A stretch of DNA of 51,182 nt from Myxococcales bacterium (lineage in GTDB: Bacteria; Myxococcota_A; Polyangia; Polyangiales; Polyangiaceae): positions 1-51,182 of the forward strand of contig JAHFDZ010000005.1 of assembly GCA_023248745.1 (NCBI GenBank), in the 5' to 3' direction. The notes below the pieces were generated by a model. The model ran no database searches. It was not told the DNA's origin and saw nothing but the letters and a program-made list of their open reading frames with translations. Of the stretch, positions 1,234 to 35,358 are shown piece by piece (position 1 is the stretch's first letter; each line of letters begins with the position of its first letter). The translations under genes and the position numbers were made by a program.

Positions 1234-2429
1234 TAGCCGAAAAAGACGCTCTGGCGCTCCGCGACCGCGCGATCAAGCATGCTTTGAATCGTGCTTCGCA
1301 CGCGTTCGCTCAGCCGTCCGATCGCGACGTCGTCTTCGAGAACGTCGTTTCCGTACGAGCCGAAATCAATCGCCTCGCCAAACGAGATTTTCCACTTCGT
1401 TGGGGCTGGCAGTAGACCCGCAGGGCCGAGCAGTGGAAAACCAGGCGTTATTGGAAAAAATGGAATGCCGAGTACTTTGCTCGCGCCCTCAATTCGAAAC
1501 AATAGCGGATTCATTTCTTCGGCGCCGACGATCGCAACAGGAACGATCGGCGTGCGGGTACGAATTGCGAGCTTCACGAACCCTCCGCGACCGAAACGTT
1601 GAAGGCGATAGCGCTCTTTGAACAACTTGCCGACGCCCTTGATGCCCTCTGGAAACACGGCGACAAGTTCGCCGCGATCGAGGAGTCGCTCCGCGTTTTC
1701 TTGGCAAGCTCGCACCGCTCCGAGACGCGTTGCTAGCGTTCCGACGTAGGGAAAGTGCACAATGAAGTCTTCGACGAGCCAACGCAGATCGCGAGCTCGT
1801 TGTGTTTCGCGGTTGACGGCCATTCGCAGCATGAGGCCATCCCACGGTGGTTGCCCCGAGTGATTCGCCACGAGTAAACAACGCCCCTCGAGTGGCAGGT
1901 GCTCCATGCCTTCGACGGAAACGCGAAAATAGCGATCGTAAATTAAGTTGAGCAAAGGCGCGACGCGCTTGTCCCAAACGGGATCGTAGCCAAAGTCGTC
2001 ATGCATCCCCGCGCGATCACGCAAGCCGACGCGCCCCCAACGGTGGAGGTAAAACTGCGTGTCGTGAACCTCGGTTTCTGCGTCAAATGGTTCTTCGACG
2101 AGCGCCGCGCTCGGAAGGGATGGCGGGACCACGCTCATGGGGACGGTCGATGATGGTGGCGACTCAACGGGCTCTGCCTTCGCTGCTCTTTGTTTTGCGC
2201 GCGCCTTAGACTTTCGGGCCTTCTTTGCGATCTTTGGCGCTGCGGATTGCCGAACGTCAAGCGGCTTACCTTTCGGTTTCGAGCTTCGCTTCACTTTGAG
2301 CTTCACGCCCTTCTTTGACGTCGCGATCGTCGCCGTTTTCTTTTGCGGCTCGCGCGGCGCAGTCTTTGTGGGCTTCTTGACGGCCTTGGCCTTGAGCTTC
2401 GTCTGCTTATGTTTGATCGACTTGCTCAT
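1233..2429 (-). CDS. PlsC-like lysophospholipid acyltransferase with Lys-rich N-terminus
   Basis: This is a 398-residue protein. Residues 1-90 are a Lys/Ala-rich tail with no recognisable fold. Residues 150-390 form a glycerolipid acyltransferase domain: NHSGQPPWD (His190, Asp197) as the catalytic block and FPEGIKG plus VPVAIVGAEE downstream. The spacing between catalytic His and Asp is six residues rather than the classic four, as I recall for MGAT-like acyltransferases in bacteria. It probably acylates a lysolipid at the inner membrane, with the acceptor unknown. Its ATG overlaps the stop of the upstream SDR gene (ATGA), which points to translational coupling. Confidence 0.85.
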   Translation of the reverse strand: MSKSIKHKQTKLKAKAVKKPTKTAPREPQKKTATIATSKKGVKLKVKRSSKPKGKPLDVRQSAAPKIAKKARKSKARAKQRAAKAEPVESPPSSTVPMSVVPPSLPSAALVEEPFDAETEVHDTQFYLHRWGRVGLRDRAGMHDDFGYDPVWDKRVAPLLNLIYDRYFRVSVEGMEHLPLEGRCLLVANHSGQPPWDGLMLRMAVNRETQRARDLRWLVEDFIVHFPYVGTLATRLGAVRACQENAERLLDRGELVAVFPEGIKGVGKLFKERYRLQRFGRGGFVKLAIRTRTPIVPVAIVGAEEMNPLLFRIEGASKVLGIPFFPITPGFPLLGPAGLLPAPTKWKISFGEAIDFGSYGNDVLEDDVAIGRLSERVRSTIQSMLDRAVAERQSVFFG

Positions 2430-3466
2430 CGTGATGCCTCTTGCAGGAGCTGCACGTCGCGCAAGCGTTGTGCGCTGGTGAAATCGAGGACGGCTTCGCG
2501 TGAGGTGTAAGCCGGAATGAAGCCAAGTACGTCGCGCGCGCGTTCGCCATCAGCGATGAAGAGGTAGCGAAGATATCGAATGAAACTGGCCGGGGCGTCA
2601 GCGAGCTGCAACGGCCAACTGATGCGCGTGACGGCCTCGGCGATCGGTTGCGGAATCGGAACTGCAATGCGTCCGGCGAGACGAACGACTGTCGAGATTG
2701 GGAGCACGCCATCACTCACGATGTTGAAGATTCCGGATGCGTTGCGGTGGATGGCGACCATGAATGCAGTGATCGCGTCAATTTCGTGAAGGAACTGAAC
2801 CAATGGATCAAATCCCATCAGCGTGGGGACGAGTCTTCTGGCGAGGTAGCGCGTGACGGAGTTCAACACTGTCGGACCCAAGATTGGTGCGGTTCGCAAG
2901 ATCGTCACCTTGGTTGCCGGATTCTTCTGCGCAAATTTCAGTGCCTCGCTTTCGGCGGCAATTTTGTCCGCGAAGAAGGGCTCCCGCGTCGTCGCACGAA
3001 GCGGATGATCTTCGGTGAGAAAGTTTGGGTTGGTTGCGTGAGCGCCATACAGAAGCGTCTGCGACCAAAGGACCAGCTTCTTGATGCGCGCCTGTCTCGA
3101 AGCGACAAGCGCGTGCATGGTGCCAACGCTCTCAAGTTCATGCGCCCAAGCTGACGCGGTCGTTGGAGAGGGGAGAAACGCAAGGTGCACGAGAGTGTCG
3201 GCGCGCTCGGCTTGCAGAATTTCTCCAAGACGAGCCTCCGCCGTAGATTGCGTCAGGTCGACTTGATACAGCCGGGTTTTCGATCCAGCAGTCGGCGGTG
3301 GCTCCGTATCGATGGCGACAATGCGACCAATGCGCTCGTCCTCTTGCATCAAACCGATGAGGTTCGTTCCCAAAAATGACGCCGCGCCTGTGAGGGCAAT
3401 CACCCGCGGGCGAGTTGTTTTCGTCTCGAGTGGGGACCGATTCGTGTGCGAGATCGGAGCAGTCAT
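2426..3466 (-). CDS. NAD(P)-dependent epimerase/dehydratase family (extended SDR)
   Basis: This is a 346-residue Rossmann protein. The nucleotide-binding motif TGAASFLG is at residues 26-33, followed by an acidic residue after the second strand (AIDTEPPP), which favours NAD. LYGAHATNPNFLTEDHPLR is typical of atypical or extended SDRs. Where the catalytic YxxxK is expected the sequence reads FFADK, so the Tyr may be a Phe. I chose the internal ATG at 3466 because the upstream 21 residues do not look like protein and the Rossmann fold begins shortly after. It is the first gene of the operon with the acyltransferase and truB, and is divergent from the kinase gene. The substrate is unknown. Confidence 0.85.
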   Translation of the reverse strand: MTAPISHTNRSPLETKTTRPRVIALTGAASFLGTNLIGLMQEDERIGRIVAIDTEPPPTAGSKTRLYQVDLTQSTAEARLGEILQAERADTLVHLAFLPSPTTASAWAHELESVGTMHALVASRQARIKKLVLWSQTLLYGAHATNPNFLTEDHPLRATTREPFFADKIAAESEALKFAQKNPATKVTILRTAPILGPTVLNSVTRYLARRLVPTLMGFDPLVQFLHEIDAITAFMVAIHRNASGIFNIVSDGVLPISTVVRLAGRIAVPIPQPIAEAVTRISWPLQLADAPASFIRYLRYLFIADGERARDVLGFIPAYTSREAVLDFTSAQRLRDVQLLQEASR

Positions 3467-3602
3467 GCGCACGCGAAAGTAACACCAGTTCCATGAAATG
3501 CCGAAGTTCGAGGCCTCTCTATGTTCCATTGGGGGTCACAGGCGCATCAACGCACACACGGTGCGAGGGGCGGGATAGTTACCCAAGTGGGTCAGCTCCA
3601 GT

Positions 3603-3608
3603 TACAAT
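3603..3608 (+). promoter_or_regulatory. Candidate -10 box (TACAAT) of the kinase gene
   Basis: TACAAT lies eight bases before the proposed kinase start, so transcription would begin almost at the ATG and give a nearly leaderless mRNA. The -35 region is poor (GTTACC near 3578). No Shine-Dalgarno sequence precedes the ATG, which agrees with leaderless initiation. This is a suggestion only. Confidence 0.3.
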
Positions 3609-3616
3609 TTACGAGA

Positions 3617-5659
3617 ATGCGGAACCCGCCTGACTCCGCGCCACACCGACTTGGGCCATACGAGCTCGTAAGACGACTCGCAACCGGCGGGATGGCGGAG
3701 GTGTATCTCGCGCGACGAGAAGGTCCGCGAGGGTTTGCCAAGAGTGTGGCCCTCAAGCGCATTTTGCCCCAGTTCGCAGCAGACAGCGATTTCGTGGCGA
3801 TGTTCGTCGACGAAGCGCGTGTGTGTGCGCGACTCGCGCATCCGAACATCGTGCAAGTGTTCGACTTCGGAGATGAAGACGGCGAACTCTACATGGCGAT
3901 GGAGTTTGTCGACGGCACGACGACAGCGCGCCTGTTGCGAACCTCGTTCACACGAGGTGAAGAAATTCCTCTCGAGGTTACGCTGCATATCTGTCTAAGC
4001 ATGGCGCGTGCGCTCGACTACGCGCACCATGCGCGCGATGATCTTGGGCGTCCGCTAGCGCTCGTGCATCGCGACGTGTCGCCAGGCAATGTGCTTATTG
4101 ACCGTGCGGGAGCCGTCAAGTTAACTGACTTTGGGATCGCACGTGCCGCCGAGATCGAACGTCGCACGGACGTCGGCCACTTGAAGGGCAAGATGGGGTA
4201 CATGTCGCCCGAGCAGGTGCTTGGTCGCGAGCTTGATGCGCGCAGCGATCTCTTTTCGCTTGGCATTGTGCTTGCCGAGATGATCATTCGCAGGCCGCTC
4301 TTTGCAGGTGGTCGCGAACTTGACGTACTCATGCGCATTCGCGATTCGGATTTGTCGGCAATCGATCGCGCACCTGTTCGCGTGCCCGATGACGTGCGCG
4401 CCATCCTCTTTCGTGCGCTCACAAAAGAACCTCAGCAGAGATTCGCGACCGCTGGGCTTTTCGCGGAAGCGATCGAGGAAGTGCTCAGGCGCAGACGGAT
4501 GCAAGTCACGCCGGCGCAACTTGCGCAGCTCATCGAGAAGTGGAATTTGTGCGAACGACCGAGCGCAAGTGAGATGCCTCCTTCGAGCGGATCGAGCTTC
4601 GGCGCGTTTGGCGACGATGAAGAGAACACGACGCGCAAAGCCCTCAAGCGACCGGATGAACTTCCCGACTCGACGAAGCATAGTTACCGTGTTCGCGCCG
4701 ACGACGGCACGAACATCGGTCCTCTTTCGTATCCAAATTTGATCGAATTGTTTGCCACCGGACGAGCGGCAGTAAAATCGCAGATTTCGCGCGACGAAGG
4801 TCGATTTCGCGCAGCCGCCGAGTATCCTGAGCTCACACGTTTTGTGACGAGCCCGGCGCTTCGTTGGGACGAGCAAATTCCGCGTGATGCGAGCGATCGA
4901 GGCAGGCTCGATCGTTCACGCTTCGTTGCCACGTTCTTCCGACTTGCGGTGAGGCGCGAGACGGGCGTGCTCATCCTGCGAGAAGGGCTAAGGCAAAAGA
5001 AGATTTATCTGGTCGACGGTACCCCAGAGTTCGTGGCGTCGACCGAGAAGAAGGAGTTGCTCGGCGAATATCTGGTGACACGCGGCCAAGTGCTTCGGAT
5101 GGAGGTCGACATGGCACTTGCGATGTTGCCTCGCTTCGGTGGTCGCTTGGGTGCTGCGCTCGTAGGTCTCAGTATTTTGCGCCCGATCGAACTCTTTCGC
5201 GCGATTCATGATCAGATGATCGAACGCGTGGTCGAAGCGTTCTCGTGGCAGACAGCCGAGATGGGGTTCGTAAGAGCCGCAAGATCGCAAGAAGAGACGT
5301 TTCCGTTGGGGGTCGATCCCTTCGAACTCATCGCGCGTGGCTTTCGAGCAGGTTACGCATCAGCCGAATTGGAACTCTTGCTCCGTCCTCTGCACGAAGA
5401 AGTCATTGAGCCAGTGCACGTTCCGCCGGTGCGCCTCGAGACATTTCGTTTGCCTGATGCTGAGCAAGCCGTCATCGAGCTTGTCACCGAGAAGACGACG
5501 TTGTCGGCCTTGGTGGCAAAGGCATCTGTCAAGAAACTTGCCGATCCGGATGACGTGTTACGGGCTGTGTTTTTGGGGCTCTCGTGCGAGTTGCTCAAGT
5601 CGCCGAAGTGGGTGCTGCCGCCTTCGTACAAGCCGAGACTCATTGCCGACGGCGGGTAG
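3617..5659 (+). CDS. Ser/Thr protein kinase with GYF_2-like and DUF4388-like tail
   Basis: This is a 680-residue Hanks-type kinase. The Gly-rich loop and VALK Lys47 are followed by HRDVSPGN (151-158), DFG (171-173) and MGYMSPEQ in the activation segment; the kinase domain spans about 14-290. Residues 355-410 (YRVRADDGTNIGPLSY) resemble a GYF_2 domain. Residues 430-590 resemble a DUF4388/PATAN-type domain, with RETGVLILREG and RGQVLRMEVDMALAML. No transmembrane segment is apparent, so it is likely cytoplasmic. The ATG at 3617 is preferred to an upstream start because the 32 extra residues are low-quality sequence. Such architectures are common in Myxococcota signalling; the target is unknown. 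Confidence 0.92.
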   Translation: MRNPPDSAPHRLGPYELVRRLATGGMAEVYLARREGPRGFAKSVALKRILPQFAADSDFVAMFVDEARVCARLAHPNIVQVFDFGDEDGELYMAMEFVDGTTTARLLRTSFTRGEEIPLEVTLHICLSMARALDYAHHARDDLGRPLALVHRDVSPGNVLIDRAGAVKLTDFGIARAAEIERRTDVGHLKGKMGYMSPEQVLGRELDARSDLFSLGIVLAEMIIRRPLFAGGRELDVLMRIRDSDLSAIDRAPVRVPDDVRAILFRALTKEPQQRFATAGLFAEAIEEVLRRRRMQVTPAQLAQLIEKWNLCERPSASEMPPSSGSSFGAFGDDEENTTRKALKRPDELPDSTKHSYRVRADDGTNIGPLSYPNLIELFATGRAAVKSQISRDEGRFRAAAEYPELTRFVTSPALRWDEQIPRDASDRGRLDRSRFVATFFRLAVRRETGVLILREGLRQKKIYLVDGTPEFVASTEKKELLGEYLVTRGQVLRMEVDMALAMLPRFGGRLGAALVGLSILRPIELFRAIHDQMIERVVEAFSWQTAEMGFVRAARSQEETFPLGVDPFELIARGFRAGYASAELELLLRPLHEEVIEPVHVPPVRLETFRLPDAEQAVIELVTEKTTLSALVAKASVKKLADPDDVLRAVFLGLSCELLKSPKWVLPPSYKPRLIADGG

Positions 5660-5686
5660 GACGCAGCTTGCTCAGATGCCTAGCGA

Positions 5687-6265
5687 CTACTTTGCAGCGG
5701 CAGGTGTCGCCGCCTGGCTCTTCTCCGCGATCGCCTTGATGCTTGCGAGGCCTTTTTCGAAATCGCCGCCGACCTGCTTATCCATGTTCATAAAGAGGCC
5801 AAACACCTTCATGCCAAGGTTGTTGTGACCATCCATGCTCCAGGTGAGCTTCACAGCCTTGTCACCATCAGGAGCGATGGCGAACATCGTCTTGTTCGTG
5901 GCCTCAAACGGCTTGATGAACTCGAGCTTCTGAACAATGCGTGCGCCGGGTACTGCTTCCGTGATCGTCATGCGACCTTGGCCGACGTCTTTGTTGCCTT
6001 CCCATTCATAGATCGCGCCGACGCCTTTGGGGGCCCCGCTAAACGATCGCTTCATTGTGGGGTCGAGCTTCTCCCAAGGTGACCATGCGGCCCAGGCGTG
6101 CATGTCTTCAATCTGAGCGTAAACCGTAGCCGAGCTGGCTTCGATGCGCTGCACGCGCTCGATGTGGAAGTCGCTCGGGCGCGTTGATGCGTACGCGACA
6201 ATGATTGCGCCAGGTGTAACGACGGCGGCGACAACGCCGCCCATGATCTTCTTCCAGTTGGCCAT
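5687..6265 (-). CDS. SRPBCC/polyketide-cyclase-like membrane-anchored protein
   Basis: This is a 192-residue protein with an N-terminal hydrophobic segment (VVAAVVTPGAIIVAYA) that should act as a membrane anchor or uncleaved signal. A Polyketide_cyc2/SRPBCC domain follows (RIEASSATVYAQIED, WAAWSPWEKLDP, VKLTWSMDGHNN). SRPBCC proteins form a cavity that binds hydrophobic ligands; no ligand can be named here. The start MANWKK at 6265 is chosen over the upstream ATG at 6301 because the hydrophobic segment follows it directly. It is transcribed convergently to the kinase gene, 27 bases away. Confidence 0.82.
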   Translation of the reverse strand: MANWKKIMGGVVAAVVTPGAIIVAYASTRPSDFHIERVQRIEASSATVYAQIEDMHAWAAWSPWEKLDPTMKRSFSGAPKGVGAIYEWEGNKDVGQGRMTITEAVPGARIVQKLEFIKPFEATNKTMFAIAPDGDKAVKLTWSMDGHNNLGMKVFGLFMNMDKQVGGDFEKGLASIKAIAEKSQAATPAAAK

Positions 6266-6315
6266 GGGGCGGTGCCTATACGCAACCTTCGGGCGAGACA
6301 AGGTCTGTTGGGCCG

Positions 6316-6891
6316 TTACGCGCGAAGTACCTTTCGATAGACAGGGTATGCGACATCGCCGAAAACGCGCTCAAAGCCGCATGCTTCGTAGGTAGAAACG
6401 CGGCCCATGAACGCCTGCTCGTCGTGAACTTCGTGGGCGACAGCGTGCGGGTAGGCCTCGACCGCGCGAACTCCCAGTCGCTCGGCCTCGGCAACAGCAC
6501 CTTGCACGAGCGCGAGTGCGACGCCGCGTCGGCGATAGTCGGGGTGAACAAGTAAGCACCCCACGATGAGGACGTGGTCGCTCTCGAGTTCCAGCTTTCG
6601 GTATATCGATTGATTCCGTAGCTTGACGAGTTGCTGCGCGGGCGCGAGCTTTATCCAGCCAACGCACTTGCCGTCTGAACGCGCGATGAGACCCGTAAAT
6701 TGCCCATCGTTGAGCGATTGTTCAGCTAATTGACGATTTGCGCTCGGCTCGAAAGCGCAACGTGCGAGCCATGCGTTCTTGTCCCCACTGAAGTGCCAGA
6801 ACTGGCAGAAGCAACTCGAATGCGAGTCAGCGAAAAGATTGCTCCAGGCTTCGAAATGGTCCGGGGTGAGGCGCTCGAGCGAGAGAGTCAC
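6316..6891 (-). CDS. GNAT family N-acetyltransferase
   Basis: This is a 191-residue GNAT protein. The acetyl-CoA-binding region is visible as VGCLLVHPDYRRRGVALAL, followed by EAERLGVRAVEAYP and the C-terminal EACGFERV block. The N-terminal Trp/Cys-rich stretch (SSCFCQFWHFSGDKNAW) is unusual and could form part of the acceptor site. The GTG at 6891 overlaps the gatA stop (GTGA), so it is read as the third gene of gatC-gatA-GNAT. The acceptor is unknown. Confidence 0.85.
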   Translation of the reverse strand: MTLSLERLTPDHFEAWSNLFADSHSSCFCQFWHFSGDKNAWLARCAFEPSANRQLAEQSLNDGQFTGLIARSDGKCVGWIKLAPAQQLVKLRNQSIYRKLELESDHVLIVGCLLVHPDYRRRGVALALVQGAVAEAERLGVRAVEAYPHAVAHEVHDEQAFMGRVSTYEACGFERVFGDVAYPVYRKVLRA

Positions 6892-8342
6892 TGAACCTCG
6901 GCGGGGAAGGCCGGAGCGCACGCGCTTTCGACTGCGCTGGCGATGGTAAACAATCTTGACTCTTGAAGCGCAGGCGCAATGATCTGTAAACCGATTGGCA
7001 AGCCATCTTGTCCGATTGCGCAGGGGACGCTGAGCGCAGGCACTCCAGCCAAGCTTGCAGGCAACGTGTAGATGTCGCTCAAGTACATCGAGAGGGGATC
7101 GTTGGCCTTCTCGCCAAGCTTGAACGCTGTAGTCGGAGCGGTTGGGGAAGCGATGACGTCGACGTCTTTGAATGCCGCGTCGAAGTCGCGCCGAATAAGG
7201 GTGCGCATCTTTTGAGCGCGAAGATAGTAGGCTTCGTAATAGCCCGCCGACAGGACGAAGGTGCCAAGCAAGATGCGTCGCTTGACCTCGCGTCCGAAGC
7301 CCGCGTCGCGCGTTGCGCCGTACATCTCGCCAAGTGATTGCGCAGCTTTGCGTAGCCCGTAGCGAACGCCGTCGAAGCGCGCGAGGTTGCTCGAGGCCTC
7401 CGCCGTCGCGATCACGTAGTAGGTCGCTACCGCAAAGCGCGTATGCGGCAACTTGATCGGTCGAAGGACGCAGCCTTCGCGCTCGAGCCTTGCCAAAGTC
7501 GCGCGTACGGATCTTCCGACGTCATCGGAAAGGCCGTCCGCAAAGTACTCCTCGGGGATGCCGATTCGAAGCCCCTTGATCGCGGCGTCGCATGCCGATT
7601 CGTAACCGCCAATGGGTACATTGAGAGACGTTGCGTCATGCGCATCGTGGCCAGCAATCACCTCGAGCAAACGAGCGCTGCCACGAATGTCGGTCGCGAA
7701 GGGGCCAATTTGATCGAGGCTCGACGCAAATGCGATGAGCCCGTACCGCGAGACGCGGCCGTACGTGGGCTTCACGCCGACGGTGCCGGTAAGTGAAGCA
7801 GGTTGACGAATCGATCCGCCGGTGTCGCTGCCAAGCGCGGCAAGTGCGATGCGCGAAGCGACCGCTACCGCGCTACCGCCGGATGAGCCGCCGGGTGTGC
7901 GTGTGTTGTCCCATGGGTTTTTGGTGGCGCCATACGCGCTGTTCTCGGTCGAGGAGCCCATTGCGAACTCGTCCATATTCGCCTTGCCCGTGAGAAGTGC
8001 ATCGGCGGCTCGCAGGCGAGAAATGACGGTTGCGTCGTAGGGAGGTTCGTAGCCGCTCAATATCTTCGAGCCGGAGGTGGTGCTCTCGCCCTTTGTGCAT
8101 ATTGCATCTTTGATGGCGACGGGGACGCCCGCGAGCGTACCGAGGACTTCGCCGCGTGCGCGCTTGTCATCAATCGCTTTTGCCTGCGCGAGGATGCGCA
8201 CAGGATCGGCATGGAGCAATGCGTTCAAGCGGCCGTTGTGGCGATCGATGCGTGCGATAACGTCTCGCGCGACTTCCGTTGCCGACAGTGCGCCGCTTTG
8301 CACTTTGCTTGCGAGATCTGTGATGTGGAACGCCTCGATCAC
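6888..8342 (-). CDS. gatA: Asp-tRNA(Asn)/Glu-tRNA(Gln) amidotransferase subunit A
   Basis: GatA is the glutaminase subunit of GatCAB. It releases ammonia from glutamine for amidation of misacylated Glu-tRNA(Gln) or Asp-tRNA(Asn). The 484-residue protein carries the amidase-signature triad: Lys78 (VAIKDAIC), cis-Ser153 (GGSSGGS) and nucleophile Ser177 (DTGGSIRQPA). The ATG overlaps the gatC stop by four bases. gatB is not in this window, so the complex is split between loci. Confidence 0.97.
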   Translation of the reverse strand: MIEAFHITDLASKVQSGALSATEVARDVIARIDRHNGRLNALLHADPVRILAQAKAIDDKRARGEVLGTLAGVPVAIKDAICTKGESTTSGSKILSGYEPPYDATVISRLRAADALLTGKANMDEFAMGSSTENSAYGATKNPWDNTRTPGGSSGGSAVAVASRIALAALGSDTGGSIRQPASLTGTVGVKPTYGRVSRYGLIAFASSLDQIGPFATDIRGSARLLEVIAGHDAHDATSLNVPIGGYESACDAAIKGLRIGIPEEYFADGLSDDVGRSVRATLARLEREGCVLRPIKLPHTRFAVATYYVIATAEASSNLARFDGVRYGLRKAAQSLGEMYGATRDAGFGREVKRRILLGTFVLSAGYYEAYYLRAQKMRTLIRRDFDAAFKDVDVIASPTAPTTAFKLGEKANDPLSMYLSDIYTLPASLAGVPALSVPCAIGQDGLPIGLQIIAPALQESRLFTIASAVESACAPAFPAEVQ

Positions 8343-18111: not shown

Positions 18112-19356
18112 TTACAACGTTGCGCTTGCAGCTGGCGCGTGAGGTTCTTCGTCACCGCCAAGTACGAAGAACGCCTCACCGTAGCTCTTGAGGAGATCGA
18201 TTGCGGTATCGAGATCTTCCCGCGTATGCCCACGGGTCACGTTCAATCGCAACCGCTCCTCGCCTTGCTTCACGGCAGGGTAGGTGATGGGCACAAGCAA
18301 CACGCCGCACTCGAGAAGTGCGATGTGCATGAACAGCGTGCGCCGTTCTTCGCGGCACATGATCGGCATGATGTGCGTTGTGCTTGCTCCCAAGTCGAAC
18401 CCGGCTCGCACGAGGCTGTCGCGCATGTAGTGCGCCTTTTGATGTAGCTCGGCGACGAGCTTCGGGCCGTCCTCAATCATCATGTCCAGAATGGTCGACG
18501 CGGCGGCGACGACGGGAATGGGCAACGAAGCGCTAAACAGGAACGAGCGCGCCGTGTGTTTAATGAAGTCGACCACTTCGCTCGAGCCGAGCAAGATGCC
18601 GCCAATGCCGCCGAACGTTTTCGAGAACGTTGAGATGACGATTGGCACCTTTCCGTGAAGCCCCATCTCTTCGATGATGCCCGTGCCGCGCGTTCCTAGC
18701 GTGCCGCTGCCGTGCGCATCGTCGACGATGAGTGTTGCGTCGTGTCGAGCGCAAATCTCAACAAATTCCTTGAGAAAAGCGCGGTCACCGTCGAGTGAAT
18801 AGATGCCCTCTACGACGACAAGTGCGTTCTTCCGTTCGCGTGTTTTGAGGATGCGCTCAAGACTCTTTGCTGAGTTGTGATTGAAGAAGCGAACCTCGGG
18901 CGTCTTGCCAGGAATGCCGGCTGCCAAAAAAGTGCCATCGAGAATGCAGGCGTGACTAAAGCTGTCGAGGATGATCGTGGTGTCTTGATCGGCGAGCGAC
19001 ATGAGTGTGCCGACCATCGCTTGGTAGCCGGTCGTGAACAGCAGACATTTGTCGAAACCGAACCACTCGGCGAAGCGTTGCTCGAGTTCAACGTGTTCGG
19101 TCGTAGTGGCTTGAACGCGTGAGCTGCTCAGCCCGCAACCATACTTGTCGACGGCTTTGCGTGCGGCTTCCTTAACGCGCGGGTGCATCGTCAAGCCGAG
19201 GTAGTCGTTAGAGCTGAAGTTAATGATCTTCTTACCCGCAATCTGCGTGTGCAAACCGCCAGCCTCGAACTCGCGAAAGTACGGATAAACTTGAGCTGTT
19301 TGCGCCTCACGGACGCGTGCCAATTCTCTCGTCGCCTTCTCTTCGATCCAGCTCAT
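18112..19356 (-). CDS. PLP-dependent alpha-oxoamine synthase (KBL/AONS/SPT family)
   Basis: This enzyme class condenses an acyl thioester with an amino acid, losing CO2, to give an alpha-amino ketone. The 414-residue protein has NFSSNDYLGL at the start, SHACILDG (His135, stacks on PLP), DDAHGSG (Asp213, His215) and the PLP Lys246 in STFSKTFGG. The known branches are Kbl (glycine + acetyl-CoA), BioF (alanine + pimeloyl) and SPT (serine + palmitoyl); I cannot assign one from sequence alone. The ATG overlaps the stop of the degenerate ketosynthase gene (ATGA) and has GAGGA upstream. The neighbours, two ketosynthase-fold proteins and two ACPs, suggest an ACP-bound acyl donor rather than a CoA ester. 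Confidence 0.88.
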   Translation of the reverse strand: MSWIEEKATRELARVREAQTAQVYPYFREFEAGGLHTQIAGKKIINFSSNDYLGLTMHPRVKEAARKAVDKYGCGLSSSRVQATTTEHVELEQRFAEWFGFDKCLLFTTGYQAMVGTLMSLADQDTTIILDSFSHACILDGTFLAAGIPGKTPEVRFFNHNSAKSLERILKTRERKNALVVVEGIYSLDGDRAFLKEFVEICARHDATLIVDDAHGSGTLGTRGTGIIEEMGLHGKVPIVISTFSKTFGGIGGILLGSSEVVDFIKHTARSFLFSASLPIPVVAAASTILDMMIEDGPKLVAELHQKAHYMRDSLVRAGFDLGASTTHIMPIMCREERRTLFMHIALLECGVLLVPITYPAVKQGEERLRLNVTRGHTREDLDTAIDLLKSYGEAFFVLGGDEEPHAPAASATL

Positions 19357-20480
19357 GATTTCCTCGTGTTCAGTCGTACGACGCATGCCGTCGCGTTGCC
19401 GTGCAGGCCGAGCGCCGTAATCAGTAACATCTTTGGTTGCGAACAAGACCCGCGCACAATTGCGGCGGCAGGCACGCCGTCCCGCCAAGCGATTCCGCTC
19501 GCGATCGCAAAGGAGGCCGCCGCGCCGAAGGTCTCTCCAAGGTATCTCTTGGGTGCGGCGACAGGCGTTACAGGAAGGACAGCGTCGATTGCGGCAAGCT
19601 CGATCGTGCCACCTTTTGAGAACGCGCCAAGGCCACTGATGACAAGGTCAATCTCGTTGACAGAAGCGCCCGCGTCTTGAAGCGCGAGCTCAATCGCGTC
19701 TTTGAGCGCTGTGGTTGAAGGCGCAACAACTGAGACTTGGTCCGTAAAGTGCGTTGACGAACCAAAGCCCAAAATTGTTGCGATAGCGTCTGCTCCGCGT
19801 GCTGTGGCATTTGCCTGAGACTCGAGTGCGAAAAGCGCAGCGCCTTCACCTGCCGTGATTTGCGACCCGGTGAGTCCGATTGCCGCTATGAGCGCCGGCG
19901 TCAGTGAGTCCGCGCCGCCTACGACGATTGCTTTTGCGCGGCCGGTTGCGAGAAACGATTCGGCAAGCGACATTGCATCGAGCCCACCGGTGTTACCCGT
20001 TGAGACTGTCGCGTTGAGTGCGCGATAGCCCTCCCAAATGCTCGCGTAGCCTGCAGGTGTATTGCTCACCGTGTTCGGAAATTGATTCGGGTTGATGTAG
20101 CGCGGCTCTTCGAGAATGAAGACGCGCACGAGGTCGTGGATGGCTTCGAGGTTCGGGTACGCCGTCGAAAGAATGAAGCCCGTAGTGTCGGCGTCGCCAT
20201 TGCGCCACGTTGCGTCTTGCTTGAGGCCACTGTCGTGGAGTGCGAGCCGTGAAGCCGCAAGGACGAGCTTTGTTTGCTGATCGAGTGAGCGGAGCCCTTT
20301 GTCGCCAAGGTACGCTTTTGGATCAAAGTTACTCGCGTGCGCGATGAGGGCATCGGCGTCGAACCCGGCGTCGCGCGCAGAACCGAATGCAGGAGGTGCT
20401 CCTTGCATGCCTCGTTCGAACTCGCGTGCGCCGATTCCGACGCGGCTCACAATTCCGTAACCCGTGATGACACATTTCAT
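19353..20480 (-). CDS. Degenerate ketosynthase-fold protein (chain-length-factor-like)
   Basis: This is a 375-residue thiolase-fold protein related to FabF. The catalytic Cys position reads Asn163 (TVSTGNTGGLDAM), the HGTGT loop is replaced by GLGAFSKGG (283-291), and the LGH histidine is Glu316 (YLGETFGAA). Lys311 is kept. It therefore cannot catalyse Claisen condensation alone and resembles chain-length factors, which pair with an active ketosynthase. GGAGGTG precedes the ATG, which overlaps the stop of the active ketosynthase gene (ATGA). Expression next to the active enzyme at a fixed ratio fits a heterodimer. Confidence 0.85.
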   Translation of the reverse strand: MKCVITGYGIVSRVGIGAREFERGMQGAPPAFGSARDAGFDADALIAHASNFDPKAYLGDKGLRSLDQQTKLVLAASRLALHDSGLKQDATWRNGDADTTGFILSTAYPNLEAIHDLVRVFILEEPRYINPNQFPNTVSNTPAGYASIWEGYRALNATVSTGNTGGLDAMSLAESFLATGRAKAIVVGGADSLTPALIAAIGLTGSQITAGEGAALFALESQANATARGADAIATILGFGSSTHFTDQVSVVAPSTTALKDAIELALQDAGASVNEIDLVISGLGAFSKGGTIELAAIDAVLPVTPVAAPKRYLGETFGAAASFAIASGIAWRDGVPAAAIVRGSCSQPKMLLITALGLHGNATACVVRLNTRKS

Positions 20481-21724
20481 GCGTTCACCTCCATTGCGAG
20501 TGGCGCAGGCAGAGCTCCGGGCTTAGCGAAACATGTGACGGCGTTGTAGCCGCCGAACGCGAGCGCGTTGTTGAGCAGTATGTCGACCTTCGCCGCTCTC
20601 GCGACGTTTGCAACGATGTCGACGTCGCACTCGGGATCAGCGGTTTCATAATTGATCGTCGGTGGTATCATTTGGGTTTCGAGCGTAACTAAGCACGAGA
20701 CGCCTTCGAGCAGGCTTGCCGCGCCCATGCAATGACCAAGCGCACTCTTGTTGCTCGTTACAGGGACGCGCCGATCTCCGAAGATGTCGCGCATCACGAT
20801 CGCTTCGGCGAGGTCGTTATATTTGGTCCCTGTTCCATGGGCGTTGACGAAATCGATCGCTGACGGATCGATATTAGAACGCGCGATTGCGTCCCGCATC
20901 GCGACGATGCTTCCGGTCGCTTCGGGATGTGGGCGCGTTACGTGGTAGGCATCGCACGAGAGACCCCAACCGCCCAGCTCTGCGAGTGGAACAGCACCGC
21001 GCGCGTTCGCATGGGCCTCTGACTCGATCACGAAAACAGCGGCACCTTCGCCGAGAAGGATTCCCTGCCGGTTTGCGTCGAACGGTCGACACAAGTCGGG
21101 CGACATCGCGGCGAGCCTTACGAAACCTGCATACTGCAGCGGTGCAATGACTTCGGAAGCGCCGACGATGATCACGTCGGCTTTGCCGCGCGCGATCATG
21201 TCGCGTGCAACGCCCAGCGCGTAGTTGCCGGCAGCGCACGCAGCGTTGAGAGTAAGAGACGTGCCGCGAGCGCCAATGCTTCGCGCGACTTCTGTCGAAA
21301 GCCGGCTCGCGCTGTATCGCTTGACGTCAAGCGGGTTTACCGATGCGAGCCCTTTCGTGATCCACGTCGCCTCGAGGTTGCTGAGGAGCACAGCGTCGCC
21401 CATCGTCGTACCCATGATGGTTGCTGCGTTCTCGGCGGTGGGAAGTCGCGCGTCTTCGACTGCTTGACGTGTCGCTGCGACCGCCATGGCTGCACAGCGA
21501 TCGAGTCTTGCAAACTCGTCGCGCGTGAGCGCTGATGCGGCATCAAAGTTGTGGGCTTCTCCCGCGTAGTGCCGGCCTATTCGTTCAGTATCGAAGGCCC
21601 TTACGCGTGAAATGCCAGATTCTCCGGCGAGGAGTGCCTTGCCAAACGCCTTGCGGCCGATGCCAAGCGAGCTCACGACGCCGGCGCCAGTTACCCAAAC
21701 TCGATGTGGACCCACCCGATGCAC
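20477..21724 (-). CDS. Beta-ketoacyl-ACP synthase (FabF-like, active)
   Basis: This is a 415-residue condensing enzyme. The Cys-His-His triad is complete: Cys163 in NAACAAGNY, His296 in NAHGTGT and His331 in ALGHCMGA, with Lys326 (TSNKSALGH). It would extend an acyl-ACP with malonyl-ACP. I read the GTG at 21724 as the start; GTG codons at 21715 and 21700 are alternatives before the VWVTGAG strand. It is the first gene of a coupled three-gene operon with the chain-length-factor-like protein and the oxoamine synthase, and is divergent from two ACP genes. Confidence 0.92.
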   Translation of the reverse strand: MHRVGPHRVWVTGAGVVSSLGIGRKAFGKALLAGESGISRVRAFDTERIGRHYAGEAHNFDAASALTRDEFARLDRCAAMAVAATRQAVEDARLPTAENAATIMGTTMGDAVLLSNLEATWITKGLASVNPLDVKRYSASRLSTEVARSIGARGTSLTLNAACAAGNYALGVARDMIARGKADVIIVGASEVIAPLQYAGFVRLAAMSPDLCRPFDANRQGILLGEGAAVFVIESEAHANARGAVPLAELGGWGLSCDAYHVTRPHPEATGSIVAMRDAIARSNIDPSAIDFVNAHGTGTKYNDLAEAIVMRDIFGDRRVPVTSNKSALGHCMGAASLLEGVSCLVTLETQMIPPTINYETADPECDVDIVANVARAAKVDILLNNALAFGGYNAVTCFAKPGALPAPLAMEVNA

Positions 21725-21770
21725 TTAACTGTCTCGTCGTGCGCTGACAACGCGTCCGGCCCTAAAATCC

Positions 21771-21792
21771 AGCGCGAATCGGCATTCGCGCT
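21771..21792. promoter_or_regulatory. Perfect 9-bp inverted repeat in the divergent promoter
   Basis: AGCGCGAAT-CGGC-ATTCGCGCT is a perfect inverted repeat in the 143-base gap between the ketosynthase operon and the first ACP gene. Its symmetry and position fit an operator for a dimeric repressor controlling both directions. A transcribed hairpin is the alternative. Confidence 0.5.
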
Positions 21793-21867
21793 TAAATCGC
21801 TTCGCAACGCTTTGCCAGAATTGTGCCCTTGCTCATGGGCCCGCGCCGCGGTACTTCCTCGCAGGCG

Positions 21868-22113
21868 ATGAGCAACGATCAGATGCTTTCACTGTTTCGC
21901 AAGCTTGCGACCGATATCGTCGAGAGAGACTTTTCTCACGTTTCGGCCGGTACCCCCATTTCAGAGTTAGGAATCGACTCACTCGGCTTGCTCGAGATTA
22001 TCGGGTCGATGGAGCGCGAGTTTCACGTTCAAATCCCTGATGAGAGCTTGGGTGGCGTCCAAACAATTTCTGATCTGATCTCGCTCGTCGAGGCGCAGAG
22101 GGCACGAACCTAA
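21868..22113 (+). CDS. Acyl carrier protein 1
   Basis: This is an 81-residue ACP. The phosphopantetheine attachment site is Ser38 in ELGIDSLGLLEI. The four-helix pattern is complete and acidic around helix II. The ATG at 21868 (MSNDQMLSLF) is preferred to a GTG at 21823 because ACPs start just before helix I. It lies 13 bases before ACP2 and is divergent from the ketosynthase operon. It likely carries the growing acyl chain. Confidence 0.9.
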   Translation: MSNDQMLSLFRKLATDIVERDFSHVSAGTPISELGIDSLGLLEIIGSMEREFHVQIPDESLGGVQTISDLISLVEAQRART

Positions 22114-22126
22114 GAGGAGAAGAATC

Positions 22127-22375
22127 ATGGCCAACTTGAAGGAAGAGCTACGTGCGCTTGTGAGCGAAGTTTCAGAGATCGACAACATTCCTGATGGTGC
22201 GAGTTTCAAAGACTTGGGCATCGACTCAATGATGGGTGTCGAAATCGTCGCCGCCGTTGAGCGCAAGTATCAGATCAAGATTAGCGACAACGAGCTCGCG
22301 CAGTTCGAGACGCTCGACAAGGCGTATGACCTCGTGTCGAAAAAGGTCGACGGCGGTCTCTCGGCCAGCGCCTAA
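22127..22375 (+). CDS. Acyl carrier protein 2
   Basis: This is an 82-residue ACP with Ser34 in DLGIDSMMGVEI. A strong ribosome site (AGAGGAGAAG) precedes the ATG. It differs clearly from ACP1, including Met-Met after the attachment Ser, so the two probably serve different steps, for example loading and chain extension or donor delivery to the oxoamine synthase. No phosphopantetheinyl transferase gene is visible nearby. Confidence 0.92.
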   Translation: MANLKEELRALVSEVSEIDNIPDGASFKDLGIDSMMGVEIVAAVERKYQIKISDNELAQFETLDKAYDLVSKKVDGGLSASA

Positions 22376-31375: not shown

Positions 31376-33325
31376 CTACGGAACGATGAGTTCGGCGAGC
31401 TCTGTTCCGCCGGCGTAGCCGTAGCTCACGAACGAATCGAACCCATAGACCATGATGCCAACGGGCTTGTCGGCGATGACGCGATGAACGCCGTCGTTTT
31501 GAATTCCGGGCAATACGTTGTCGGGAGCCGCTTTGTTCGGATCGATCGTGGGGAAGGAGAGCTGGCATCGATAGCTGATGAACGCAGGTTGCTTGCCGCC
31601 TCGCTCGCTATCGGACAGGCCATCGCCGGGTGCAATTTCGCATCCGCCGAGTGGCGCGCCATCCATGAAAACTCTCGCGTCGGCAGGTGCAGTGATGACC
31701 ACGAAGTCGAACGCATACTTGTCAGGCGTTAGAAATACGTACTCCGATCGAAATTGCTCATTCGGTGGAATGAACGTGAGGCTGGGATCACCGCCAGGCA
31801 GTCCGCGCGCGATGCCCGCCGCTTCTTGGCTCGACTGAATCTGTGTGACGAACACGGGTTGCGACGCGCTGAGTGTGAAGTTGCGAGTTGCAGTGATCGT
31901 GACGAATGCGCCTTCGCCGTCGAGCGTAAGTGTCTTGTTGGGGGCAGGCAGCGAAGTGGTGAGCACAGTTTTTCCGGGAAGCACGCTCATCACGCGTACG
32001 TATTCGGGTTCGGCAACCTTCGTCATTTTTGCGCCGGCCGCGATGATCACTTCACTTCGATTTGGAGCTCGAGCAAGTACAAATTCTTTGCCGGCGGTTC
32101 GCAGCGGAGGAGACTGCTCCTCAAGATGGTCCGCGCAGCACGAGCGTTCGGACAGCGAACTGAAGAACGGAGCGTCGGACGCCTCGCTTCCGGTGAAAAC
32201 CGCGACGGGGCCGTCGGCGTCGATGAGCGTGCCGGTGAAATCTGCATTGAAACCGCCGGACTCAAGGTTCAGCACGTCAAACGGTTCGAGCGTGAGGCTT
32301 ACCTCTTCGCCCTTTTCGATTCCATTGTTGAAGGGGCCGCCCGAAATCACGCGCGTCGCTGGGCGCACCTTGACGTTTGTCTTCGTACTCGTACCTACTA
32401 TCGTTACGAATGCGCGAAGATCTTGGCCAAAGTTCTGATTCGGAATTGAACTTGTTGCAATCGTTTGCGGCCAGCCTGAGACGACGTAAGCACGCCCCGA
32501 CCCACCACCAAGCGCACTCCGCGGAAGGAGTTGCGACGCGTCGTTTGAAAATACGTTCGCGTTTTCGAGCGGATTAAATTGGTACGCAACGATGGGCACC
32601 GTAGAGCGCACACGAAAGGCCGCTCGTGTGAGGGCTGTGCCGGTTCCTGTGTTGAACGTTCCTTCTTCCGAGCCATCAACCTCGCGCGGGCCCAACTTGA
32701 ACACCTCAAGGTTGTTCGGCGTCACCGTGGCTGATGCGACGGTGCGTATCTTTGCGGGCTGACCCGGGAGTGCATCGTCTTGCTCAATTGTAACGTGCGC
32801 GGGTACGTTTGTAACCGCGTTGGAAACCACGACCGCGAACTGCTGCGCAGCTGCGTTGGTTGATGCACCAACGTTTGCGTTATCGAGATCGACCGCCCAG
32901 TATTCGCAACCAACGTTCGATCGAACTTTCTCGGCTTGCGCGCACAAGTTGACGCAAAGGCCAGCGGCGCACACCTCTCCCACGGCCGCATTGCAGGTGG
33001 CACTTTGTTCGTAACCACTACCGTCGTCTTTGCAACGCACGACTGCCGTACCGTCGCATTGCGCCGAGCCCGGCTTGCATCGCGTGCATGCGTAGAGCCC
33101 CGGCGCGCAAGTCAAACCGGTGGCGCTGCAGTCCTCGACCGTCTTCCACGTGCGAGCCGTGCATTGTTCGAGGGACGTGCCGTTGCACCGCTTCTCGCCC
33201 GACGTGCATCCCCCGCCAGCGTCGAGGTTTACGTTTCGGTATGATGGATCAAATCGGCAAGCGACCACGCTGACGATTGTAAGGGTACTGACAGCGCTAA
33301 GAGTCGTTAGCGCCCGAAGTTTCAT
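31376..33325 (-). CDS. Surface lipoprotein, IgGFc-binding family
   Basis: This is a 649-residue lipoprotein. Signal MKLRALTTLS...SVVAC and a Cys-rich segment (CTSGEKRCNG, CTRCKPGSAQC, CNAAVGEVCAAGLC) are followed by a large domain with the IgGFc_binding pattern: VPIVAYQFNPLEN, GPVAVFTGSEA and SCCADHLEEQSPP. The family name comes from a mucin-associated protein; the bacterial function is undefined, and adhesion is a guess. The ATG overlaps the stop of the upstream IPT/TIG lipoprotein gene (ATGA), so the two are co-translated. Confidence 0.85.
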   Translation of the reverse strand: MKLRALTTLSAVSTLTIVSVVACRFDPSYRNVNLDAGGGCTSGEKRCNGTSLEQCTARTWKTVEDCSATGLTCAPGLYACTRCKPGSAQCDGTAVVRCKDDGSGYEQSATCNAAVGEVCAAGLCVNLCAQAEKVRSNVGCEYWAVDLDNANVGASTNAAAQQFAVVVSNAVTNVPAHVTIEQDDALPGQPAKIRTVASATVTPNNLEVFKLGPREVDGSEEGTFNTGTGTALTRAAFRVRSTVPIVAYQFNPLENANVFSNDASQLLPRSALGGGSGRAYVVSGWPQTIATSSIPNQNFGQDLRAFVTIVGTSTKTNVKVRPATRVISGGPFNNGIEKGEEVSLTLEPFDVLNLESGGFNADFTGTLIDADGPVAVFTGSEASDAPFFSSLSERSCCADHLEEQSPPLRTAGKEFVLARAPNRSEVIIAAGAKMTKVAEPEYVRVMSVLPGKTVLTTSLPAPNKTLTLDGEGAFVTITATRNFTLSASQPVFVTQIQSSQEAAGIARGLPGGDPSLTFIPPNEQFRSEYVFLTPDKYAFDFVVITAPADARVFMDGAPLGGCEIAPGDGLSDSERGGKQPAFISYRCQLSFPTIDPNKAAPDNVLPGIQNDGVHRVIADKPVGIMVYGFDSFVSYGYAGGTELAELIVP

Positions 33326-35358
33326 TCGTAGTTGCTCGAAAACGTTTCGCCCGCGTATGCGGACCAAGCGTTTGAGTACAACTGTCCATAGCGAATTTTG
33401 CCGTATTCGAATGGGGCGATTTGCGCGGTGTAGACCACAATATCGAGGGCTCCCTTAACGAGCGATACCTTCGCTCCGACCGCCGCCAAATCTGGAAGGT
33501 TAAGTGACTTGACAGAACCGGGAACGACGATCGTCCAACCCACAAGCCCGCCGCCCGAGGAGACAGTCACGACCGCCAAATCGGTCGTTGCGGCTGGATC
33601 GAACGAGACCAGCTTGCCGTTCCACTTCGTTGTGCTTGGAGAGGTGAGCTTGGGAATTGGGAGAAAGCCAGAGACGGTCGCCTTGCTTGTGCGCACGAGA
33701 TAGCGATTGAGGCCGCTCATCGGAAAGTTCACGTACGGACCTGACGATGCGAGAAGCGTCAGCGCGTAGGATTCGGCTGACAGATCGTCGGTCAGGGAAG
33801 GCAGTCCCGAGAACGAAACGCTTGTCGGCGAAGGCAGCGCCGACATTTTTGAACTCGATGGCAATATTGCAAACGTGTTTGGACCGACGGTGAGAGCGAC
33901 CTGCGTTGTGGCGCGGTCTGGGCCCCGAAGCGTCTGCGCAGGCGGTGTGAGATCGAGCGCGAGCCCATGATCGAAGACGCTCTTCATCGGAATATCGACC
34001 GACTTGGTGACGGCGCCGGCACCCACGCTCACGCCTCGCGCAACTCCCATGACGTAAGCGGTGAAAAGTGGAGGGCTGAGCGAACGATCTTCGATGCCTG
34101 CAAGCGCATAGAGTGTCTGCGTTCCGGTATAGGTTGTGTACGTGTACGCGTAGCCCGATTGGCCCGTTGAAGACGGTGTGACGCCTGCTGTTTCGGCGGG
34201 GAGGTAGAACTCTTCGTTCGCGTAGTTGGACGCAGTAAATACGTAAGCAACTTGACGTTCTGTCGAACGCGTCGGCTTTGGCACGCTGAACCACGGCGAA
34301 CGCTTAAACTCGACCGACGGCCACACGAGCTCGCCGCTCACGTCGCCGTTAAGTCGCGGCGTGTAGTTGCCTGTTGAGGCCGGGTCACCGTCCGCACATT
34401 CGGGCGACATGATCGGGAAGAGCAGGGCACTCACCGTTTCGACGGGAACGTCAACAAATGTAATCGGCTGAAAGCACTTTGCCGTTACCGTTACGGAAAT
34501 CTTAGTTCCGAAGCTTCCGGTAATTGAGGCCACGCCTCCGGCACTTGTGGTGCCCGTTACGGCGGTCGCAGCGTCGCTACCGGCGATGACCAATGCGCCA
34601 GGAATCGGTGTCCCACCGATCGCGCTAAACGCAAAGACGTTGAGCTTGCCTGCAAGTGCGCCGCCCGATAGTCCGCCGCGGTATCCATCTGGACCGTCGC
34701 TGTAGATGAACGCGTCGCGCGCTTGGGTGGTGACCGTGCCAGTGGTGACCGTGACCTCTTTGCTGCCAGCCGTGTTGGCGGGCGTGATGCAAGAGATGTG
34801 AGTTGTGTCCTCGAGCGAAACGCCCTCGCACGTCTTTCCGTCGATCGTGACCGATGTGGACGACGAGAAAGTGAGTCCGTCTGTCGTGATCCGAATGCGC
34901 GTTCCGCCGACGGTTGAGCCGCTTGCGGGTTCGACATAGAAACTGTCGTAGAAGAATGCCTTGTCGACGGTCCGTCGTTGCCCGGAGCTTGGGTCGACAA
35001 CGGCGATTGATGCGTAGCCGCTTTTGCCAGGAGGCATGATGACTGTTGCCCGTTGTGGTTCGCTCGCCGTGACGTCTGCGCTGGCAACGTCAACATTATT
35101 GACGATCACTTTGAGGTTCGACGGAAAGCCACGTCCGGTGAGTTGGACGCGCGTTCCGCCGTTGTATGGACCGTGCGAAGGTGTGGCGCCGAACAAGTCG
35201 AACGCCAACGAAGCGCCAACGTCGCGTCCATCACCGGCATCGCTTGCGCCTGGGCCGATTGCGCCCGATGGCGTTGCGTCGATGTCGTAGAACGTGCTCG
35301 AAGAACTCGGCAGGCAAGAAACCACGAAGAAAGCTCCAAGCGCCGCAAGTTGCCGCAT
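33322..35358 (-). CDS. Surface lipoprotein with IPT/TIG domains
   Basis: This is a 678-residue lipoprotein (signal ending FFVVSC). Two IPT/TIG beta-sandwich domains follow: ATPSHGPYNGGTRVQLTGRG and VEPASGSTVGGTRIRITTDG. Next comes a carboxypeptidase-regulatory-like stretch (GTPIPGALVIAGSDA). The remaining 400 residues are beta-rich and unrecognised. It is the first gene of a two-gene operon with the IgGFc-binding-type lipoprotein. Both may assemble as one surface complex; this is inferred from coupling only. Confidence 0.82.
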   Translation of the reverse strand: MRQLAALGAFFVVSCLPSSSSTFYDIDATPSGAIGPGASDAGDGRDVGASLAFDLFGATPSHGPYNGGTRVQLTGRGFPSNLKVIVNNVDVASADVTASEPQRATVIMPPGKSGYASIAVVDPSSGQRRTVDKAFFYDSFYVEPASGSTVGGTRIRITTDGLTFSSSTSVTIDGKTCEGVSLEDTTHISCITPANTAGSKEVTVTTGTVTTQARDAFIYSDGPDGYRGGLSGGALAGKLNVFAFSAIGGTPIPGALVIAGSDAATAVTGTTSAGGVASITGSFGTKISVTVTAKCFQPITFVDVPVETVSALLFPIMSPECADGDPASTGNYTPRLNGDVSGELVWPSVEFKRSPWFSVPKPTRSTERQVAYVFTASNYANEEFYLPAETAGVTPSSTGQSGYAYTYTTYTGTQTLYALAGIEDRSLSPPLFTAYVMGVARGVSVGAGAVTKSVDIPMKSVFDHGLALDLTPPAQTLRGPDRATTQVALTVGPNTFAILPSSSKMSALPSPTSVSFSGLPSLTDDLSAESYALTLLASSGPYVNFPMSGLNRYLVRTSKATVSGFLPIPKLTSPSTTKWNGKLVSFDPAATTDLAVVTVSSGGGLVGWTIVVPGSVKSLNLPDLAAVGAKVSLVKGALDIVVYTAQIAPFEYGKIRYGQLYSNAWSAYAGETFSSNYE

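Follow-up and report, generated by a model that had tools for sequence, protein, structure and literature searches.

A ketosynthase and chain-length-factor pair joined to a serine-palmitoyltransferase-like enzyme: a candidate first step of sphingolipid synthesis in Polyangiales

What is made by a gene cluster that joins a ketosynthase (KS), a catalytically dead ketosynthase-fold partner resembling chain-length factors (CLF), an alpha-oxoamine synthase (AOS) and two acyl carrier proteins (ACPs)? The question is raised by positions 18112 to 22375 of a 51,182-nucleotide stretch of myxobacterial DNA, referred to here at its full length as the window (contig JAHFDZ010000005.1, order Polyangiales). 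An earlier note, made from the letters alone, had suggested a long-chain amino ketone, either sphingoid-base-like or a new signal or lipid, built from an ACP-bound chain. The five genes lie as it described, with the three synthase genes linked by 4-bp ATGA overlaps (AOS/CLF at 19353-19356, CLF/KS at 20477-20480) and both ACP genes on the other strand, and the AOS, ketosynthase and ACP identities were confirmed with Pfam and NCBIfam. From sequence comparison and gene distribution, we consider it probable (about 0.7) that its product is the long-chain (sphingoid) base from which sphingolipids are built, and that it replaces the classical serine palmitoyltransferase (SPT).

The oxoamine synthase and its distribution

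The AOS (18112-19356, minus strand, 414 amino acids) contains the motif STFSKTF with the catalytic Lys246 (protein numbering) and is best read as an SPT-like enzyme. A tree was built with references from annotated records, including E. coli and Roseomonas Spt, Bacteroides SPT, Kbl, BioF, ALAS and capnine-type synthases, together with the Kbls of the order. The cluster AOSs form one clade (100/100), accompanied by a small sister clade, and are sister to a group of SPTs together with capnine synthases (97/94). The Spt proteins of E. coli and Roseomonas form a separate 100/100 clade without the cluster AOS. The Kbls of the order and Klebsiella Kbl likewise form a 100/100 clade that excludes it, so that the tree suggested in the earlier note sets the enzyme apart from Kbl. 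In approximately unbiased (AU) tests, a grouping of the cluster AOS with Kbl was borderline and only marginally disfavoured (p = 0.051), and a grouping with SPTs that leaves out the capnine synthases was not rejected (p 0.29). The motif around the catalytic lysine is mostly [ST]TFSK[TS] in cluster AOSs and differs from the SPT motif GTFSKS by one position, while Kbl and the BioF of the window's own genome carry [GS]TLGKA. The AOS does not reach the BioF equivalog cut-off (323.5/426 bits). Identity as a Kbl or BioF paralogue was rejected on the basis of the tree and the motif, and because the genome encodes a BioF-like AOS of its own besides this one.

The best PDB match of the AOS is the S. 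multivorum SPT, for which the residues contacting pyridoxal phosphate and serine have been described (PMC10196870; its numbering equals chain numbering + 1). Residues N52, S81, H138, D210, H213, T241, K244 and S273 of that enzyme correspond to N50, S79, H135, D212, H215, T243, K246 and S275 of the AOS, and the single change among the contact residues is Met271 to Leu273. The small sister clade (L096, L097, L098 and L118) is 42-47% identical to the window's AOS, occurs sporadically in the class and in G400 and G410, and is mostly without KS-CLF. The neighbours scanned there are unrelated (MMPL transporter, DUF4442, histidine kinase), and at L118 an ACP-like stretch adjoins the AOS.

The distribution of the two AOS types within the order points to replacement of one by the other. 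Among 106 genomes of the order, 79 encode the cluster-type AOS, 20 a classical SPT-like AOS and 7 neither, and none encodes both, compared with about 15 expected to do so if the types were independent. Both kinds are present in family f1, with 14 genomes of one type and 16 of the other. CLF accompanies the cluster-type AOS only. The best NCBIfam match of the classical type is the SPT model NF047600 (437-456 bits), and its genes form a three-gene row with YghO and a CerR homologue (L086/L158) or adjoin YghO (L090 and L092). The YghO family is found in 96/106 genomes, with either AOS type, and in G045 (L112) a YghO-type cerS adjoins the cluster-type AOS. The window's genome carries cerS of the YghO type (3366-4445; protein 65% identical to the order's copy) adjacent to cerR (2366-3325) on the minus strand of contig C135, and its one other AOS is BioF-like (293/426 bits on the BioF model). 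Since the genes for the later ceramide steps are present and there is no other SPT candidate in this genome, the cluster is the sole candidate for the first step. Exclusion with classical SPT, combined with CerS and CerR elsewhere in the genome, indicates ordinary sphingolipid and ceramide synthesis with a variant first step. A sphingoid-base-like product from an ACP-bound chain, one of the products named in the earlier note, is the best explanation, and no evidence points to the other, a signal or isolated novel lipid.

The five-gene set is kept across the order (10 families), mostly contiguous, and over 30 loci in other genomes contain it, at protein identities of 33-94%, which excludes a chance arrangement and confirms that the neighbours are conserved in relatives. 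In 379 sampled genomes of the phylum, AOS orthologues (60-94% identity) were found in 47 and CLF (cut-off E <= 1e-25) in 40, all of them in the window's order, with both present in 39. These counts come from genome samples and not from a species tree, and many of the genomes are fragmented. The AOS is 60-77% identical across families, and the cluster is near-universal, single-copy and vertically conserved in the order.

The ketosynthase pair and its carrier proteins

The KS (20477-21724, minus strand, 415 amino acids, FabF-type) had been called active, in agreement with its intact Cys-His-His residues and with a complete Cys/His/Lys/His set in 32/32 sequences compared. The CLF (19353-20480, minus strand, 375 amino acids) had been described as lacking all catalytic residues. 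It has indeed lost the Cys, replaced by Asn, and both His, but the Lys is present. Across 32 sequences, the Cys position is Asn in 28, Pro in 3 and Arg in 1, the first His is Ser, Gly or Ala and the second Glu or Asp in all 32, and the Lys is retained in 31. The best PDB matches of KS (333 bits) and CLF (123 bits) are two different chains of one solved complex, 9s5h, which supports a predicted KS/CLF heterodimer. The related entry 9s5i contains an ACP in the complex; a literature search found no paper for 9s5h or 9s5i. Between families CLF has diverged widely, with identities of 33-48% beyond the window's own genus. The pair may plausibly set chain length.

Two carrier proteins are encoded on the plus strand. 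ACP1 (21868-22113) has the phosphopantetheine site LGIDSLG; its open reading frame extends from GTG 21823, but ATG 21868 is the more likely start because ACP1 relatives begin there. ACP2 (22127-22375) has the site LGIDSMM and is the proposed acyl donor for the AOS. Eight genomes have the AOS without CLF, seven of which belong to genus g38, and in three g38 genomes (L108, L109 and L120) just a divergent ACP2/AOS pair remains. The survival of this pair alone argues that ACP2 is the AOS partner and KS-CLF an added module. KS-CLF is not obligatory for the AOS, as g38 keeps AOS and ACP2 without it. Whether it would serve to set chain length, to supply chains or to provide a special acyl group is less certain than sphingoid-base synthesis itself. 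ACP1 accompanies KS-CLF in many relatives, yet is variable. A fatty acyl-AMP ligase, 36% identical to E. coli AasR, lies beside the ACP genes in 15 KS-CLF loci (about half), and several KS-CLF loci include a YbgC-type thioesterase. In one relative's cluster, an acyl-ACP desaturase-type gene (PF03405; L032:5176-6003, minus strand) is located between the two ACP genes, possibly pointing to an unsaturated sphingoid or acyl chain. Neither the ligase, the thioesterase nor the desaturase is encoded in the window's cluster.

The cluster KS may also serve general fatty acid synthesis in the window's genus. A search of the window's genome with the KS finds only itself, the CLF and a PfaA-type polyunsaturated fatty acid synthase (L166:7851-14186, G000:C35; 1415 bits, above cut-off). 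Canonical FabF (534-610 bits on the FabF model) is present in 9/13 genomes tested and in 0/4 of the window's genus, apart from a fragment and, in G002, one homologue scoring 419 bits. The operon fabG-acpP-nrdR-ribD lacks fabF in both G000 (G000:C191:3610-6131, L183) and G003 (L184), while the relative G013 has fabG-acpP-fabF-nrdR-ribD. Given the clean gap between acpP and nrdR, the simplest reading is that the genus lost its housekeeping fabF. The cluster KS then seems to be the only FabF-type ketosynthase of the genus, which suggests that it can act in ordinary fatty acid elongation, and favours a use like that in fatty acid synthesis, with a chain that is fully reduced and not left as an unreduced beta-ketoacyl group. 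With fabF apparently lost, it would be a rare example of core fatty acid synthesis being assumed by a specialised KS.

KS and ACP1 are separated by a 143-bp divergent intergenic region (21725-21867), where the earlier note had placed a shared promoter. The divergent gap is present; a promoter can be inferred from the layout, but a sigma-70 scan found no site in the gap, and 2 sites against 1.1 expected in the region are no excess. The cluster itself is without a ketoreductase or dehydratase. It is surrounded by housekeeping genes, and a neighbouring ileS-type open reading frame is common to the loci of several relatives. An acyltransferase, said in the earlier note to be missing nearby, does exist in the window, where a PlsC-type acyltransferase (PF01553) adjoins an NAD-dependent epimerase/dehydratase (PF01370) at 1236-3535 (minus strand), yet at a distance of 16 kb. 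The epimerase (2429-3535) was considered as a CerR and rejected, as a search of the genome with E. coli CerR did not list it as a match. Elsewhere in the window, at 31379-33454 (minus strand), a protein with an IgGFc-binding domain (PF17517) adjoins a TIG-domain protein in this environmental myxobacterium.

A proposed pathway and its alternatives

In the pathway that we propose, an acyl group would be loaded onto a carrier protein by the cluster's acyl-AMP ligase where present, or otherwise come from type II fatty acid synthesis (FAS II). KS-CLF would extend the chain with malonyl-ACP, general FAS II reductases completing each round. The AOS would condense acyl-ACP2 with an amino acid, for which serine is the most likely candidate, releasing CO2 and yielding a 3-keto base, a step suggested by the family to which it belongs, by its active-site residues and by the linkage of the genes. 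Two enzymes whose genes are present, the YghO-type N-acyltransferase CerS and the reductase CerR, would then lead to ceramide. We infer the amino acid, chain length and reduction state of the product.

Several observations weigh against this assignment. The AOS does not fall within the clade that holds the SPTs with tested activity, and its scores against NCBIfam SPT models (322/640, 294/500 and 230/670 bits) are far below the cut-offs, so that we would assign it to neither of the two described SPT subgroups (PMC9386255); the order's classical SPTs likewise remain below those cut-offs. The mutual exclusion of AOS types is partly phylogenetic, the classical types being confined to two families. 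KS-CLF is missing from g38, the genomes G045, G051, G274 and G202 have KS-CLF on a different contig from the AOS, and the window's cluster is without an acyl-AMP ligase, homologues of which occur elsewhere in its genome. ACP2 is no more like E. coli AcpR than ACP1 is, and the amino acid used by the AOS could be alanine, glycine or cysteate instead of serine.

A further reading gives the ketosynthase pair a larger part: KS-CLF may hand the AOS a chain beyond the reach of FAS II, such as a beta-keto or specially long or branched acyl-ACP2, resulting in an undescribed sphingoid base or a cyclised hydroxypyrrole lipid, with the KS of the genus also having taken over primary elongation after fabF loss. 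We regard this as unlikely.

Quite unlikely is a different aminolipid base, such as capnine, made from cysteate, or a 1-deoxy base, made from alanine or glycine. The same large clade includes AOSs resembling capnine synthases, namely L138 and L134, the latter beside phosphosulfolactate synthase, and one of the PDB entries that match the AOS best is the cysteate acyltransferase 28eh. The top match is nevertheless an SPT, the serine-contacting residues are mostly conserved, and the AOS has the TFSK motif as opposed to TFAK in L134 and L138. It is also exclusive with the SPT-type AOS and not with capnine synthase. L134 comes from a Legionella lytica plasmid, where the AOS adjoins both phosphosulfolactate synthase and a 2-phosphosulfolactate phosphatase (2887-7074), a grouping which suggests that this gammaproteobacterium makes sulfonolipids (capnine).

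We consider a prodigiosin-like route improbable. Here KS-CLF would yield an unreduced beta-ketoacyl-ACP to which the AOS adds serine or another amino acid, and ring closure of the amino-diketone would give a 3-hydroxypyrrole or a pyrrolinone, in the way that PigJ and PigH work toward 4-hydroxy-2,2'-bipyrrole-5-methanol (PMC6667630). The set of functions is that of PigJ (ketosynthase) and PigH (carrier domains and oxoamine synthase), with the AMP ligase comparable to PigI (PMC6667630), and the cluster contains no reductase. The KS, however, scores just 82/900 bits on the PigJ equivalog model (PigJ is not among the models listed for CLF), the AOS co-occurs with CerS/CerR, and the locus is placed among housekeeping genes. 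What demotes this route to a rival is the persistence of AOS and ACP2 without KS-CLF in g38 and the exclusion with classical SPT. A secondary-metabolite locus for an unrelated aminoketone, suggested by KS-CLF pairs being typical of type II polyketide clusters and by the divergence of CLF between families, is very improbable given the near-universal, single-copy and vertical conservation of the cluster, the ileS-type neighbour shared by several relatives, the 60-77% AOS identity across families and the lack of recurring tailoring or transport genes adjacent to it.

Relation to known systems

If sphingoid-base synthesis is correct, the cluster represents a third route to the first step of bacterial sphingolipid synthesis, in which an ACP-dependent SPT-like enzyme is fed by its own KS-CLF, and which, in the absence of the recognised SPT, is used throughout most families of an order of myxobacteria. 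Sphingolipid producers would become recognisable that searches with known SPTs may score as 'other oxoamine synthases', and the order would offer a testable case of enzyme replacement between relatives as well as a compact five-gene system for long-chain amino ketones. A plasmid of the actinobacterium Streptomyces seems to carry a ceramide pathway, in an operon (L129:7769-12295) that encodes an AOS, a YghO-type GNAT, an epimerase and a protein with a condensation domain.

The rhodobacterial system consists of AasR-AcpR-Spt-CerR and CerS/YghO, as in Caulobacter (CC_1165/1163/1162/1164/1154) and E. coli B (PMC9386255, PMC11324152). Read directly, the E. coli plasmid sphingolipid locus encodes an acyl-AMP ligase, an epimerase, an ACP, an AOS and a divergent yghO. 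Its genes aasR, epi, acpR, spt and aca are needed for dihydroceramide synthesis (PMC9386255). Like this system, the cluster pairs an SPT-like AOS with a dedicated ACP gene (ACP2), has an AasR-kind acyl-AMP ligase in about half of its loci, and in the window's genome is accompanied by CerR and a YghO-type CerS. In contrast to it, the AOS is of a different lineage, the gene set also includes KS, CLF and a second ACP, CerS-CerR are found at a separate locus, and the window's cluster is without the ligase. Classical SPT (Bacteroidetes, Myxococcus/Sorangium; NF047600 type) shares the proposed product, the active-site residues and the TFSK motif with the cluster AOS and occurs in the same order, there beside YghO and CerR. 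However, it is 35-39% identical to the AOS, is not encoded with KS-CLF or the cluster ACPs, and shares 0/106 genomes with it.

Type II polyketide synthase-like KS-CLF pairs (6kxd and 9s5h complexes) also combine a KS with a dead KS-fold partner, whereas the KS-CLF of the cluster is joined to an oxoamine synthase by overlapping genes and has no ketoreductase or dehydratase beside it. PigJ and PigH likewise use a ketosynthase, carrier proteins and an oxoamine synthase in sequence, a resemblance by logic only: in the prodigiosin enzymes carrier and synthase functions are combined in one protein, the cluster KS is far from the PigJ model, and their type of product needs an unreduced beta-ketothioester, which is not indicated for the cluster. 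The earlier note knew of no described system with this minimal set. The discrete KS-CLF-AOS-ACP-ACP combination is indeed in neither of the nearest ones, but Spt/AcpR/AasR (PMC9386255, PMC11324152) and PigJ with PigH (PMC6667630) come close. A literature search that fell short of most subscription journals found no description of KS-CLF coupled to an ACP-dependent SPT-like enzyme or of this AOS lineage. The individual parts are of known kinds. What looks new is the coupling, and with it the AOS lineage that is sister to the SPTs and capnine synthases described so far.

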